The position numbers and the translations under genes are program-made. From Deltaproteobacteria bacterium (GTDB taxonomy: Bacteria > Myxococcota > Myxococcia > SLRQ01), in contig JARGFU010000017.1 in NCBI GenBank assembly GCA_029210625.1, positions 1 through 64,000 of the forward strand: DNA of 64,000 nt, in the 5' to 3' direction. Below, one piece after another: positions 14,132 to 49,308 of the stretch (position 1 is its first letter; each line of letters opens with the position of its first letter). A model generated the notes under the pieces. It ran no database searches and had not been told where the DNA came from. It saw only the letters and a program-made list of their open reading frames with translations.

Positions 14132-15673
14132 ATGGGCCTCTTTCCCCCTGCCAGGGAGGTGCTCGCCGCGGGCGCCGGCGAGCTCGAGGGCACGGCCTTC
14201 CCGCTGCTGCTGAACGCGATCGCCGTGCAGGCGCGCACCCTCTGCCTGGAGCTGAAGCACAACAACCTCGAGAAGAAGATCTTCTTCGAGGACGGAGTGC
14301 CCGTCGGCTGCGAGACCAACCTCCTCCACGAGACCCTCGGCCGCTTCCTCGTGCGGGAGGAGAAGATCACCGACGAGCAGTACCAGGCGGCCCTCGGGGA
14401 GTGCGCCTCGACCGGCGTCCGGATGGGCGAGTGGCTGGTCCAGCAGCAGCTGCTCGCGCCCTACGATCTCTTCCGGCTGATGCAGAAGTCCCTGGCGCTG
14501 AAGATCCTCGACGCCTTTCGCTGGTCCAGCGGGCGCTGGCGCCTGGCCCTGGACGCCGAGTCCGGAGCGACGCCGCTGAAGATCAACCCGGCGCAGCTGG
14601 TGCTGACCGGCTGCAGCAGCAGCCTGCTCTACACCACGGTCACCGCCGCCCTCGCCGCGGTCGCCGGAGAGCGCTTCGCGCTCGTTCCCTCACCGCCCCA
14701 CGAGCTCGGCAAGCTGAAGCTCTCGGGGAAGGACTCCCGCCTCCTCAAGGCCTTCGAGGCGGCGCCCGATCTGGGCTCGCTGCTGGCGACCAGCGCGCTC
14801 GACGACGAGGAGGTGCTGCGGCGCCTCTACGCCTTCCTCCTCCTGGGCTTCGTCGCCCCGGCCGACGAGGTCGCCCGGATGCCCTCACCCGGGCCGGCGC
14901 CCGCGGCCGCTCCCGTCTCCGAGGCGCCCGCCGCGCCCGCGCCCGTGCCGGCGGCCCGGCCGGGCCGCTCGCCGGAGGCGGTGCGCGACGAGGTGATGGG
15001 CCTCTTCCTGCGCTACCGCGATCTCGATCCCTTCGACCTGCTCGGTGTCTCGGAGGAGTCGAACTTCGCCGCGCTGCGGGAGGCCTTCCTCGCCTTCGGG
15101 GAGCGCTTCGCCCCCTGGTCCCTCTCCGCCTCCGGGGAGGTGTCCGCGGAGGTCGAGGAGAAGGCCGGCCTCCTCTTCCTGGCCGGCGCCCGGGCCTTCG
15201 CCGAGCTCGCCGACGCCGGCCGGCGCAGCGAGTGCGTCCGCCGCCGCCAGGAGCGGGCCGCCTCGAGGCAGGTGCGTCGCAAGGGCCCCGACTTCACGAT
15301 CCGCACCGACCTCCTCGACGGCGAGACCCAGTTCGGCAAGGGCCGGGCGCTCCTGGCGAAGGGTGAGGTGGCCGGCGCGATCGAGCACCTCCAGTACGCC
15401 GTGGACATCGACCCCCGGCCGCTCCACCGGGCCTGGCTGGGCTGGGCGCACCTGCGCCGCGGCGGCCCCGGCAGCGCCGAGGCGAGGGAGGCCGTCACCC
15501 TCCTGGAGGGGGCGGCCCGGGAGGCGCCCCGCGTCGCCGAGATCTTCTTCTTCCTGGGGTCGGCCCGGCGGGCGGCGGGCGACCTCGAGGGGGCAGCGGC
15601 GGCGCTGCGCCGGGCGGTGCAGCTGGCACCCGAGCGCGCGGACTACGCGAAGGCCCTGGCCGAGCTGGCCTGA
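14132..15673 (+). CDS. DUF4388 - J-like - TPR protein
   Basis: A 513-residue cytoplasmic protein. Residues 1 to about 235 contain a DUF4388 (PATAN-related) domain, recognisable from LCLELKHNNLEKKIFFEDGVPVG and later ALKILDAFRWSSGRWRLA. A Pro/Ala linker follows (about 250-285). Then comes a region resembling a J-domain start (YRDLDPFDLLGVSEESN, then LREAFLAFGERFAPW) but lacking the HPD signature, and finally TPR repeats (about 390-513). DUF4388 proteins in Myxococcota and relatives accompany gliding, polarity and signalling systems; what this one does is not evident. The start at 14132 follows a divergent gene by 82 bp. No signal peptide. Confidence 0.8.
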   Translation: MGLFPPAREVLAAGAGELEGTAFPLLLNAIAVQARTLCLELKHNNLEKKIFFEDGVPVGCETNLLHETLGRFLVREEKITDEQYQAALGECASTGVRMGEWLVQQQLLAPYDLFRLMQKSLALKILDAFRWSSGRWRLALDAESGATPLKINPAQLVLTGCSSSLLYTTVTAALAAVAGERFALVPSPPHELGKLKLSGKDSRLLKAFEAAPDLGSLLATSALDDEEVLRRLYAFLLLGFVAPADEVARMPSPGPAPAAAPVSEAPAAPAPVPAARPGRSPEAVRDEVMGLFLRYRDLDPFDLLGVSEESNFAALREAFLAFGERFAPWSLSASGEVSAEVEEKAGLLFLAGARAFAELADAGRRSECVRRRQERAASRQVRRKGPDFTIRTDLLDGETQFGKGRALLAKGEVAGAIEHLQYAVDIDPRPLHRAWLGWAHLRRGGPGSAEAREAVTLLEGAAREAPRVAEIFFFLGSARRAAGDLEGAAAALRRAVQLAPERADYAKALAELA

Positions 15674-17643: not shown

Positions 17644-18378
17644 TCAGAGCGAGGCGGCGAGCGTGCGCAGCACCTCGCTCGCCCCCTCTTCGATCACCGC
17701 CCCGTGGCCGGGGACGAGGCGGACGACCTCGCCGCTCTCCGCCTGGGCGGCGAGGAAGTCGCGGTAGGCGGCGCGGCTCCGGCTGACGCGCATCATGAGG
17801 CGGCCGATGAGGGTGACGCGTGGGCCGCCGGTCGAGCCGAGCACCCGCCCGTAGAGCCACCACCACAGGCCCGGCTGGTGGGGGAGGTTGAAGAGGCTGT
17901 CGGCGAAGATCAGGCTCAGGCCGTCCTCGCTGCGCACGATCATCGCCCCCTCGACGTGGCGCTCGGCGTCGAAGTGGGAGAGCCTCACCGTCCCCTCGGG
18001 GTCGAGGCTCTCGAAGTCGTCGTAGGTGCCGTGGACGGCCTGCACCTTGGCGGCGACCATCTTGCGGGCGGGCACCGGGCAGATCACCTTCAGGCCCGGG
18101 TAGCGCTCGACGTAGCGGGCAGCGTCGAGGCAGTGCCAGCCGTTGGGGACGATCAGGAAGGCGGGCTGGCCCAGGGCCTCGAGCGCCTCCATCCCCGCCT
18201 CGTCGAGGGCGATGGCGCTGTGCAGCGCCAGCTTCCCCTCGCTGGTGCGAGCGACGCTCATCACGCGCCGCAGACCCATCTTCGGGAGCGCGCCCTCGAC
18301 CCGCCAGAGGTTCTCGGCGAGCGGCTCCAGCGCGCCATGCTCGAGGACCTTCCACTCCCGCTCCAGCGCTCGGCTCAT
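17644..18378 (-). CDS. DUF4336 (metallo-beta-lactamase-like) protein
   Basis: A 244-residue cytoplasmic protein of the DUF4336 type. LENLWRVEGALPKMGLRRVM and HSAIALDEAGMEALEALGQP open the domain. FLIVPNGWHCLDAARYVERYPG and LIFADSLFNLPHQPG follow, and RLVPGHGAVI occurs near the C-terminus. The layout resembles the metallo-beta-lactamase fold, with the usual HxHxDH cluster replaced, so hydrolase activity is uncertain. The ATG at 18378 is preferred over one seven codons upstream because GGGAGG lies before it. The 166-bp inverted-repeat element ends 23 bp upstream of this start, between it and the DUF3592 gene. Confidence 0.75.
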   Translation of the reverse strand: MSRALEREWKVLEHGALEPLAENLWRVEGALPKMGLRRVMSVARTSEGKLALHSAIALDEAGMEALEALGQPAFLIVPNGWHCLDAARYVERYPGLKVICPVPARKMVAAKVQAVHGTYDDFESLDPEGTVRLSHFDAERHVEGAMIVRSEDGLSLIFADSLFNLPHQPGLWWWLYGRVLGSTGGPRVTLIGRLMMRVSRSRAAYRDFLAAQAESGEVVRLVPGHGAVIEEGASEVLRTLAASL

Positions 18379-18400: not shown

Positions 18401-18566
18401 CTAAACCAGAGATCATGATTCCCGAACAGCGGATGGCGCCGCGGACGTGCCCGGATGCAAGGAAGGGTGAGGGAGCCTAGCCTTAGCTAGGTGACCGAGG
18501 CCTGACGCCGCAGGCGGGTGCGGCCTGCAAGCCAGGCGTGATCGGGAATCGTGATTTCTGGTTTAG
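18401..18566 (+). mobile_element. 166-bp MITE-like element, copy 1 (IS630-type ends)
   Basis: A non-coding element with terminal inverted repeats. The left end CTAAACCAGAGATCATGATT... and the reverse complement of the right end agree at 25 of the first 28 positions. Both ends read C-TA-AACC and GGTT-TA-G, which is what insertion with TA duplication into a CTAG site would leave. IS630 itself is known to prefer TA within CTAG. Inside are a CCTAGC-CTTA-GCTAGG hairpin and a GCAGGC/GCCTGC hairpin. The copy at 49143-49308 is the same length, inverted, and differs at three positions only. It lies 20 bp after the DUF3592 stop and 23 bp before the DUF4336 start. No transposase is encoded. Confidence 0.85.
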
Positions 18567-18585: not shown

Positions 18586-19464
18586 TCAGGCGAGGAGCAG
18601 CCAGGCGAGGAAGACCATCAGGGCGATCCCCGGCCGCAGCAGCAGGCCGATGACCCGGCCGGCGGAGGCGGCGACGATCCCATCCGAGGCGTCCTGCTGG
18701 AGGTGCGCGCCGATCAGATCGAGGGGGACGGCGCGCGCGGGCTTGCGGGGATCGAAGAGGATGGCCTCGGTGGACTCGTCCTCGAGGGCGGCGGTCTCGT
18801 GGGTGCGGACCGAGAAGGTGTGATCCGAGCCCTGGCGATCGAAGTACTCGAAGACCAGCTCGTAGACCGGCTGCTCGTTGATCCGGGTGTTGGTCGGCTT
18901 CTTCAGCTTCAGCACGGCGCGGGTCGCCTCGCCGTGGACCAGGAGGTCCTGCCAGCGGCCCTGGACGCGCAGGCGGGTCACGACGAAGGCGAGCCCGATG
19001 ATCGGGAAGAGGAGTACGAAGAGCACCGCGGCCCCGAAGAGGGAGCGGCGGGCGCCGACGATCACCGCCGCCTCGGGGTGGTCGGGGAAGTCGAGGACCG
19101 TCACCGCCTGCCCGACCTGGTAGTCGTAGCCGCCGGTGACGTAGCTGACGACCTCCTGCTGCTCGCCCCGGCCGTCGGGGTAGCGGGCGCGCAGGGCCAT
19201 CACCGGCTGCTCGTTCACCGAGGCCGAGGTGCCCTCGATGGCCACGAGCTCGCCGGGCCGGCGCCGGGCGTCCTCCTCGTCGAGGAGGAAGGAGCCGAGG
19301 TCCGCGTTGCCCACGAAGACCGCGGTGCCGATCAGGCCCATCGCCAGGAAGGCCCAGCCGATGAGCTGCACGGTCCCCGAGAAGAGGACGACGATCCGGG
19401 CGCCGAGGGAGACGCGGCGCGGTGGCTCACGCAGGGCTTCGAAGGAGAGGTCGCTGGCGGGCAC
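18586..19464 (-). CDS. DUF3592 membrane protein
   Basis: A 292-residue protein with hydrophobic segments near the N-terminus (IVVLFSGTVQLIGWAFLAMGLIG), in the middle (LFGAAVLFVLLFPIIGLAFVV) and at the C-terminus (VIGLLLRPGIALMVFLAWLL). Two extracytoplasmic beta-rich parts lie between them, with paired motifs (NEQPVMALRARYPDG and NEQPVYELVFEYFDRQG) typical of DUF3592 proteins. The two similar motifs suggest an internal duplication. The start is GTG. No enzymatic role is known for the family. The MITE-like element follows its stop codon. Confidence 0.75.
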   Translation of the reverse strand: MPASDLSFEALREPPRRVSLGARIVVLFSGTVQLIGWAFLAMGLIGTAVFVGNADLGSFLLDEEDARRRPGELVAIEGTSASVNEQPVMALRARYPDGRGEQQEVVSYVTGGYDYQVGQAVTVLDFPDHPEAAVIVGARRSLFGAAVLFVLLFPIIGLAFVVTRLRVQGRWQDLLVHGEATRAVLKLKKPTNTRINEQPVYELVFEYFDRQGSDHTFSVRTHETAALEDESTEAILFDPRKPARAVPLDLIGAHLQQDASDGIVAASAGRVIGLLLRPGIALMVFLAWLLLA

Positions 19465-47603: not shown

Positions 47604-49133
47604 CTACTTTCCGGCCTTCTTCCCCGGGGCCTTCTTGCGGGAGCGGGCGTCCTTCTTGCGCTTGCCGCGGCTCTCGAGGGCCGCCTCCATGCGCTCGATG
47701 ACGGTCTCGAGGACCTGCACCCGCGCGTGGCGCTTGTCGTCTCCGGCCACCAGGGTCCAGGGCGCATCGTGGGTGCTGGTGCGATCGACCATCTCGTTCA
47801 CCGCGGCCTCGTAGGCGCCCCACTTCTCCCGGTTGCGCCAGTCCTCGTCGGTGATCTTGAACTGCTTCCAGGGGGTCGCCTGCCGCTCCTCGAAGCGGCG
47901 CAGCTGCTCCTCCTTGCTGATGTGCAGCCAGAACTTGCACAGCACGATTCCGTGGTCGATGAGGTGGTCCTCGAAGGCGTTGATCTCCCCGAAGGAGCGC
48001 CGCCACTCGGTCTCGGTGGCGAAGCCCTCCACCCGCTCGACGAGCACCCGCCCGTACCAGGAGCGGTCGAAGATCCGCACCATGCCGTCCGCGGGGATCT
48101 CGCGCCAGAAGCGCCAGAGGTAGTGCTGCAGCTTCGCCTCGCCCTCGGGCGCGGCGATCCGGACGACCCGGTAGAGGCGGGCGTCGATGGGGGAGATCAG
48201 GCGGCGGATGGCGCCGCCCTTCCCGCCGGCGTCCCAGCCCTCGAAGGCGCAGACCGTCGCGATGCGCTGCTGGTAGAGCTCCCAGCCCAGGGCCTGCAGC
48301 CGGGTCTGGGCGGCGGCCAGCCGGGAGCGGTAGCCCTTCTTGGTGAGCTTCGCCGAGAGGTCCACGGTGTCGAGGATGGTGTGCCCGGCCTCGGCGGAGG
48401 GATCCCCCGAGGGCCGGGAGGGCTTCTCGGCGGCGTGGTCCAGGGCCCGGCGCGTGGTCTCGAGGATCAGCTCGGCGGCGGTGATGTCCCGGTAGAGGGG
48501 ATCGGTCGACTCGACCACGTGCCAGGGGCAGGCGCCGGTGTCGGTGATGCGGATCGCGCGCTCGGTCGCGGCCATCATCCGCTCGTAGTGCTTCGCGTAC
48601 TTCTTCGCCATCGGCGAGACGGTCCAGTTCTTCTTCTTCGACTCCTTGTGGCGCCTCTTCTGGGCGTCGGCGGAGAGGTGAAGCCAGAGCTTCACCAGGA
48701 TCGCGCCGCCGTCGCTGATGGTGCGCTCGAAGTCGGCGATCTGGTGCAGGCGCCGCTCGAAGCTCGCCTCGTCCAGCTCCTCGAAGCCCCGGCCATTGAT
48801 GGGGTCGGTGTACCAGCCGCCGAAGAGCACGCCGGTGCGCCCCCCCGGGGGGAGCTGCTGCCAGTAGCGCCAGGCCCAGGGGCGGGCCGCCTCCTGGTCC
48901 GTGAGCTGCCAGAAGCTCACGGTGTTGACGGTGCGCGCGTCGAGCCAGCCGGTCAGCTGATTGACCAGCAGGCTCCTCCCCGCGCCCTCGACCCCCGCCA
49001 CGAGGATGATGATCGGCCGGCCCGCCGCGGCAGCATCCTGCTGCGCCTGGACCAGCCCCATCCTCAGCTCCGGCACGCGCTTCTCGAACTGGGCCTTCGA
49101 GAGCTTGTGCCCCACCTCCGCAGCCTCGAACAT
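47604..49133 (-). CDS. pap: two-domain PPK2-family polyphosphate:nucleotide phosphotransferase (PAP type)
   Basis: A 509-residue protein with two tandem PPK2 domains. The second (about 260-480) has intact motifs: Walker A FEGWDAGGKGGAIRRLI, Walker B RIFDRSWYGRVLVERVEGF, and a Lys/Arg-rich lid. The first (about 20-240) has a degenerate Walker A, VAGVEGAGRSLLV, with Arg for Lys, and is probably structural, as described for two-domain PAP enzymes. These transfer phosphate from polyphosphate to AMP. The C-terminal tail is Lys/Arg-rich. The MITE-like element ends 10 bp before its ATG; GGTGG upstream would be the ribosome site. Confidence 0.92.
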   Translation of the reverse strand: MFEAAEVGHKLSKAQFEKRVPELRMGLVQAQQDAAAAGRPIIILVAGVEGAGRSLLVNQLTGWLDARTVNTVSFWQLTDQEAARPWAWRYWQQLPPGGRTGVLFGGWYTDPINGRGFEELDEASFERRLHQIADFERTISDGGAILVKLWLHLSADAQKRRHKESKKKNWTVSPMAKKYAKHYERMMAATERAIRITDTGACPWHVVESTDPLYRDITAAELILETTRRALDHAAEKPSRPSGDPSAEAGHTILDTVDLSAKLTKKGYRSRLAAAQTRLQALGWELYQQRIATVCAFEGWDAGGKGGAIRRLISPIDARLYRVVRIAAPEGEAKLQHYLWRFWREIPADGMVRIFDRSWYGRVLVERVEGFATETEWRRSFGEINAFEDHLIDHGIVLCKFWLHISKEEQLRRFEERQATPWKQFKITDEDWRNREKWGAYEAAVNEMVDRTSTHDAPWTLVAGDDKRHARVQVLETVIERMEAALESRGKRKKDARSRKKAPGKKAGK

Positions 49134-49142
49134 TCCACCACC

Positions 49143-49308
49143 CTAAACCAGAAATCATGATTCCCGAACACGCCCGGCTTGCAGGCCGCACCCGCCTGCG
49201 GCGTCAGGCCTCGGTCACCTAGCTAAGGCTAGGCTCCCTCACCCTTCCTTGCATCCGGGCACGTCCGCGGCGCCATCCGCTGTTCGGGAATCATGATCTC
49301 TGGTTTAG
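49143..49308 (-). mobile_element. 166-bp MITE-like element, copy 2 (IS630-type ends)
   Basis: Same element as 18401-18566, inverted, same length, 163 of 166 positions identical. Terminal repeats here match at 27 of 28 positions. The three differences all lie in the right-hand 40 bases of the reference orientation. Its outer TA dinucleotides are again embedded in C-TA...TA-G. The right end supplies the TAA stop of the small lipoprotein gene, and its left end is 10 bp from the start of the PPK2 gene. Confidence 0.85.

Follow-up and report, generated by a model that had tools for sequence, protein, structure and literature searches.

Two near-identical 166-bp sequences lie on opposite strands of the window (the whole stretch of 64,000 nucleotides analyzed here) and raise the question of what kind of repeat they are, what has spread it, and what its interior represents. 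An earlier note had described them as copies of a candidate non-autonomous IS630-type MITE. Its description of the two copies was confirmed: they are equal in length and agree except at three positions (134, 141, and 151 of the element), their first 28 bp match the inverted last 28 bp at 25 (copy 1) and 27 (copy 2) positions, and C-TA-AACC and GGTT-TA-G form the boundaries of each. The features of the two copies are listed in Table 1.

Table 1. Features of the two copies of the element and their surroundings in the window.
Feature	Position	Strand	Remark
Copy 1 with flanking target bases C..G	18401..18566	+	Identical to five further genome copies
Mobile unit, copy 1	18404-18563		160 bp
Left TA target duplication, copy 1	18402..18403	.	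From sequence
Right TA target duplication, copy 1	18564..18565	.	From sequence
Left terminal inverted repeat, AACCAGAGATCATGATTCCCGAACA	18404..18428	+	26 of 32 positions (CTA included) shared with the GAAC end of the G151 IS630-type IS
Right terminal inverted repeat (reverse complement AACCAGAAATCACGATTCCCGATCA)	18539..18563	-	25 of 32 positions shared with the GATC end of the G151 IS630-type IS
Copy 2 with flanking target bases	49143..49308	-	98% identity to copy 1
Mobile unit, copy 2	49146-49305		
Gene left of copy 1, start facing the element	17644..18378	-	Codon-usage gene call
Gene right of copy 1, TGA stop 20 bp from the element	18586..19464	-	Codon-usage gene call
Gene with start 10 bp from copy 2	47604..49133	-	Codon-usage gene call
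Conserved structured core, GGATGCAAGGAAGG..GAGGGAGC-hairpin-GTGACCGAGG..GACGC.GCAG	18453..18513	+	Covarying; in at least 40 of 195 genomes of the phylum
Apical hairpin GCCTAGC-CTTA-GCTAGGT	18475..18492	+	Fold; both bases of a pair changed in up to 12/26 sequences
GA of tandem G.A motif 1	18473..18474	+	Partner GA 18493-18494; G.A and A.G in 23/26 at two column pairs
GA of tandem G.A motif 2	18469..18470	+	Partner GA 18497-18498; G.A 26/26, A.G 24/26
Structured core, copy 2	49196..49256	-	Model match on the - strand, 49181-49269

Copies of the element in the host genome

Further copies, which the earlier note had suggested looking for, are numerous in the host genome (G000; 6.1 Mb in 64 contigs): 21 near-full-length copies (91-100% identity, E ≤ 7e-62) and four one-end fragments were found, and six of the 21 are identical to each other. 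The element end pattern had 46 matches in this genome, compared with none for the reversed-pattern control, so the repeat far exceeds what chance would produce. Both C-TA and TA-G are intact in 17 of the full copies, and the remaining four have one base changed there. With the TA counted as target duplication, the mobile unit measures 160 bp; the repeat of 166 bp noticed earlier is real, but it is the shorter unit between the TA duplications that moves. This unit has inverted repeats of 25 bp and no gene was called inside it, which makes it a short non-coding sequence; a DDE transposase gene of its own, as in an IS630 insertion sequence, was not called within the 160 bp. It therefore combines the characters by which a MITE is recognized, namely a short non-coding sequence, terminal inverted repeats, a target-site duplication, and multiple dispersed copies. 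The view of the element as non-autonomous, recently multiplied, and provided with IS630-type ends at CTAG was borne out by the 21 copies, six of them identical, and by a 1,223-bp IS630-family IS with matching ends in related genomes (see below). Two near-identical copies only 31 kb apart could also have arisen by segmental duplication of one stretch of the genome, but the 21 copies are spread over many contigs with no flanking sequence in common, and this explanation is refuted.

Two copies (L011 and L019, at G000:C1:221409-221574 and 222905-223068) point the same way with only 1.3 kb between them, and L019 seems to have arisen by recombination between two subfamilies (its left part like L001, its right part like L020), which breaks pairs of its apical hairpin. 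Three solo ends, L024 and L027 (G000:C19:42001 and 70890) and L022 (C4:207665), start with CTAGACCAGA, not CTAAACCAGA; two of them precede genes by 47-79 bp, one of the two right at a TAG stop, and the solo ends may be older remnants or may have been co-opted near promoters. When flanks were joined, no convincing spanning ORF was obtained that would prove insertion inside a gene. The gene starting next to copy 2 has one relative, a distant locus in a groundwater MAG that gave no information on empty sites. In the phages, plasmids, and viral contigs searched, neither the whole element nor its core has a genuine relative, and the few pattern matches there were rejected as relatives because they have no core-like fold. 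An exact IS630-type end, TAAACCAGAGTTCGTGATTC, is present at position 14600 of the viral-labelled contig IMGVR_UViG_2911267057_000001 (L179).

Terminal repeats, transposase and target sites

The ends of the element were searched with TAAACCAGANATCANGATTCCCGA, allowing up to three mismatches, in 195 genomes of the phylum, and the reversed pattern served as control. This 24-base pattern was matched in eight of the 195 genomes (host included) and the control pattern in none. Most matches in G151 and G073 lie about 125 bp from contig ends, which is the mark of a longer multi-copy element. A complete IS of 1,223 bp, with C before TA at both ends, was indeed found in several genomes of the family of G151, and its transposase reaches 169-207 bits with the NCBIfam IS630 model NF033545 (cut-off 100) and also matches PF13358. 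The element agrees with the ends of the G151 IS at 26 of 32 positions on the left and 25 of 32 on the right, and the difference between GAAC on the left and GATC on the right is common to both. Movement by an IS630 transposase is thus suggested by the likeness of the ends. The earlier expectation of an IS630-type transposase with matching ends proved right for related genomes, which carry the 1,223-bp IS, but not for the host assembly (98% complete), where PF13358 was not found. The IS5/IS4-type transposase domains PF13586 and PF01609 were likewise not found in this assembly. Multi-copy IS are often missing from assemblies, and the host may harbor an IS630 that was not assembled.

The likeness between the element and the IS stops approximately 25 bp in from each end. 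Comparison of the interior with the 1,223-bp IS by blastn gave nothing significant, and the core model (see below) had no match on the IS or its other short derivatives. A plain MITE, i.e., an internal-deletion derivative of an IS630 whose decayed interior folds by chance, would account for the matching ends and for the fact that the same IS has further short derivatives; however, it is very improbable given where the likeness stops, the blank result of the core model on the IS and its derivatives, and a core that covaries and recurs behind unrelated ends in further genomes. Judged from these comparisons, the interior of the element is not IS debris. The other short derivatives of the IS630-type element, all of them without the core, include sequences of 113 bp (L137), 101 bp (L138), 284 bp (L140), and about 180 bp (L147 and L148).

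Gene calls based on a codon model for which the window served as training set show that 12 of the 21 copies supply the TAA stop codon of a flanking gene. This concerns 16 gene ends (eight left and eight right, with four copies serving both sides), and in each the TAA is composed of the TA of the duplication and the first A of the element. The stop codons of the remaining genes in these flanks are TGA (22), TAG (15), and TAA (1). Profile matches run to the ends of the proteins (EttA, 556/556; hydroxyacylglutathione hydrolase, 248/248; RlmD, 432/432), indicating that insertion into CTAG changed a native TAG stop to TAA. From these intact gene ends, the ancestral C-TAG site appears to have been a stop codon, in four cases one common to two convergent genes. 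Outside the elements, 10 of the 14 CTAG sites in the window are TAG stops. Because CTAG here is mostly a stop codon, no extra stop targeting is needed, and targeting beyond the motif was rejected when the 12 of 21 insertions at stops were set against these 10 of 14 sites. Neither of the two copies in the window is at a stop codon. For one-sided flanking genes in the host genome, there was no orientation preference (four sense, four antisense), so a role of the element in the mRNA of its neighbors is unsupported, and a benefit of the hairpin to the element itself is the better guess.

A structured core behind different ends

The fold of the element has a z score of -10, and its core follows the pattern 5' GA-N-GA-NN-GA-GC-hairpin-GT-GA-NN-GA-N-GA 3'. 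The tandem G.A mispairs are nearly invariant, while the intervening base pairs switch as units (GG/CC, CC/GG, CG/CG, and GC/GT; C/G, G/C, and T/G); the two base pairs that part motifs 1 and 2 switch from GG/CC to CC/GG between genomes. The element of the window has lost the third G.A step. In an alignment of 26 core sequences, which was built by sequence (MAFFT) and not fitted to structure, 96.2% of the cells are paired, compared with 71.7% in shuffled and no more than 40% in slid alignments, and 70 cells contain double changes, compared with 22.8. No Rfam family scored above its gathering threshold, and the only match there was a chance one (E 2.4). In many genomes, a second conserved tandem-GA step, GGACCGAG.../...CGACGGGAG, borders the terminal repeats on their inner side (L085, L088, L087, L095, L102, and the loci of the Anaeromyxobacter type introduced below) and is absent from the element of the window.

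The two strands of the element are not equivalent. The fold energy of the + strand is -102.6 kcal/mol and that of the opposite strand -79.7 kcal/mol. Among the mismatches in the arms of 25 elements, G.U outnumbers A.C (68 vs 22) and G.A outnumbers T.C (152 vs 14), in a uniform direction; these 25 elements are not independent, and p-values calculated from them overstate the significance. The mismatch bias indicates a constraint on the single-stranded form of one strand, and RNA would most simply be its functional form.

The same core was found behind other ends. In G001, the other genome of the host's family, three loci resemble only the middle of the element and have other terminal repeats, and two end types are present side by side in this genome. 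A first covariance model detected the core in 14 of 195 genomes, and a second one, based on 26 diverse sequences, in at least 40 of 195 genomes and at least 30 of 90 genera, with at least 39 copies in the richest genome; the latter counts are lower bounds, as only part of the candidates were scored. At least ten different terminal repeats were distinguished by inspection of the outer arms, including GAGCGCCGATCAGGTT (G022, G084, and G093), GGGCCTGTCTTCAAACC (G185), GGGCCTGTTAACACTA (G006), GGGCCCGGGAACGGCCAAG (G114), and GAGCGCGTGAATC (G007 and G023). The total span stays near 160 bp, with 157-163 bp in the members of the Anaeromyxobacter type and 158-168 bp wherever the automatic boundary was clear. 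We take the genomes G007, G034, and G018 to be of the Anaeromyxobacter type and others to be Myxococcaceae, and hence the phylum to be Myxococcota.

Members of the Anaeromyxobacter type are flanked by a direct repeat of TCA or TGA, which in 7 of 11 cases is the stop codon of a gene. Joining of flanks revealed empty sites in G034, such as GGCTCAGG compared with GGCTCA-161 bp-TCAGG, where a single TCA corresponds to TCA-161 bp-TCA. Such empty sites show that these members really moved, with a 3-bp duplication unlike the TA of IS630; their terminal repeats, GAGC..GTGAATC, would be expected to match the ends of an IS with an IS5-type enzyme. It was also observed (L037-L062) that the TNA duplication reads TCA on the structured strand in 9 of 11 cases, which implies that these elements enter their target in a single orientation; in most cases, this is antisense to the gene whose stop codon serves as the site.

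How one core came to stand behind so many ends can be explained in two ways. A single continuous family, whose ends diverged slowly alongside their transposases with no end swapping, is a real possibility, because elements with different end types remain near 160 bp in total length, which a single lineage would predict, and the arms change yet keep pairing. On the other hand, the TA duplication of the present element and the TNA duplication of the Anaeromyxobacter type point to different transposase families, and G001 carries two end types together. From the latter observations, we infer that ends have been exchanged rather than slowly diverged.

Two further explanations assign the conserved fold another function. 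One of them is mobility through the hairpin in a single-stranded form, either DNA or RNA (by an HUH-type mechanism or by reverse transcription), with no DDE transposase involved. The conserved strand-specific fold and the failure of our searches to find a transposase in the host assembly would agree with it; however, the duplications (TA, TNA) and the match of the ends to IS630 are hallmarks of DDE transposition, and no replication-strand preference was seen by eye among 39 copies in G007, so that such mobility is highly unlikely. The other regards the element as a domesticated structured RNA or bidirectional terminator that serves the host, the terminal repeats being only the base of the hairpin. 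It draws on the strong strand-specific structure and on how often copies are located where genes end or converge, but that location follows from the CTAG motif alone, and six identical copies at unrelated sites, presence or absence between related genomes with 3-bp direct repeats, and ends common to an IS all make domestication unlikely.

Proposed explanation and related elements

Taken together, the element is probably a non-autonomous MITE composed of two modules, IS630-type ends and a hairpin rod that is old and conserved. The outer module is an IS630-type terminal repeat that takes up some 25 bp on either side. An IS630-family transposase related to that of the 1,223-bp IS, which occurs in genomes that we take to be Myxococcaceae-like, presumably acted in trans to move the element into CTAG, duplicating TA. 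Since CTAG is mostly a TAG stop in this GC-rich genome and the element begins with A, insertion turns TAG to TAA and leaves the protein intact, even where two convergent genes use one CTAG. The inner module is the hairpin rod with tandem G.A pairs between covarying base pairs, maintained as the single-stranded structure of one strand; this form is most simply RNA, presumably produced by read-through from neighboring genes. In different genomes, the core is carried by elements of about 160 bp with different terminal repeats.

More tentatively, we propose a superfamily of satellites of about 160 bp, ERIC included, built around one strand-specific tandem-G.A hairpin. It may have persisted over phylum-level time by adopting the terminal repeats of whichever transposase was available, those of IS630 type duplicating TA and others TNA, with the hairpin selected as RNA or single-stranded DNA for the benefit of the element and with stop codons as safe landing sites. 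In the usual view, a MITE is the deletion leftover of one IS and its middle has no meaning, whereas here the middle is conserved and the ends vary, which suggests a satellite lineage that moves between transposase families. This would provide a lead on the origin of ERIC. The choice of site also accounts for the spread of such elements through GC-rich genomes with densely packed genes, where the target word is a stop codon and the first base of the element restores the stop.

ERIC (enterobacterial repetitive intergenic consensus, also named IRU or RU-1) has been described from Enterobacteriaceae and Vibrionaceae (PMC10969869) as a non-autonomous sequence of 127 bp with a TA duplication and a stem-loop containing A-G mispairs (PMC2229807, PMC2759123). 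Both it and the present element are imperfect palindromes of 100-200 bp that form a long stem-loop containing A-G mispairs, duplicate TA, and are non-autonomous, and both have the apex GGAGC-hairpin-GTGAC on the same strand. The core covariance model, when run on E. coli ERIC, placed its apex on the ERIC center and on the right strand (11.2 bits, E 0.05 in 1.7 kb). Local alignments of ERIC with the 26 cores gave a summed z of 5.5, a value not reached by any of 400 dinucleotide shuffles, and a low score on the opposite strand; since the 26 cores are related to each other, this is support and not proof. These results suggest a possible kinship between the core and ERIC. There are also clear differences: the apex alone scores with the covariance model, while the arms and ends of ERIC differ. 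The class of the host holds genomes that we presume to be Anaeromyxobacter- and Myxococcus-like, not Enterobacteriaceae or Vibrionaceae. In addition, no transposase is known for ERIC, whereas the ends of the present element match an IS630-type IS.

No description of this core family was found in the literature searched, a selection that did not extend to the primary reports of Chunjie and of ERIC in Yersinia. YPAL measures 167-168 bp (PMC2759123). Compared by description only, Correia/NEMIS, YPAL/RU-2, and Chunjie of Geobacter are likewise small palindromic MITEs that fold over their full length. Similar repeats may also occur in Geobacter, which lies outside the phylum to which the genome searches were confined. 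The RUP of Streptococcus pneumoniae, a non-autonomous sequence of about 107 bp with a TA duplication, is mobilized by IS630-Spn1 (PMC2229807). RUP has ends that resemble an IS630-family IS and thus provides a precedent for an IS630-mobilized MITE, but it has no known core or sequence in common with the present element, and its interior has not been described behind other ends. With IS630-family IS and ordinary MITEs, the element has in common its terminal repeats and its CTAG/TA target; it differs in having no transposase gene and an interior unrelated to the IS. The original reading as an IS630-type MITE was therefore correct as to ends and target, but it missed the conserved covarying core of non-IS origin, the link to stop codons, and the possible link to ERIC. 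The element is an IS630-ended MITE in form and unusual in kind, with a conserved structured core, changeable ends, and stop codons as landing sites.
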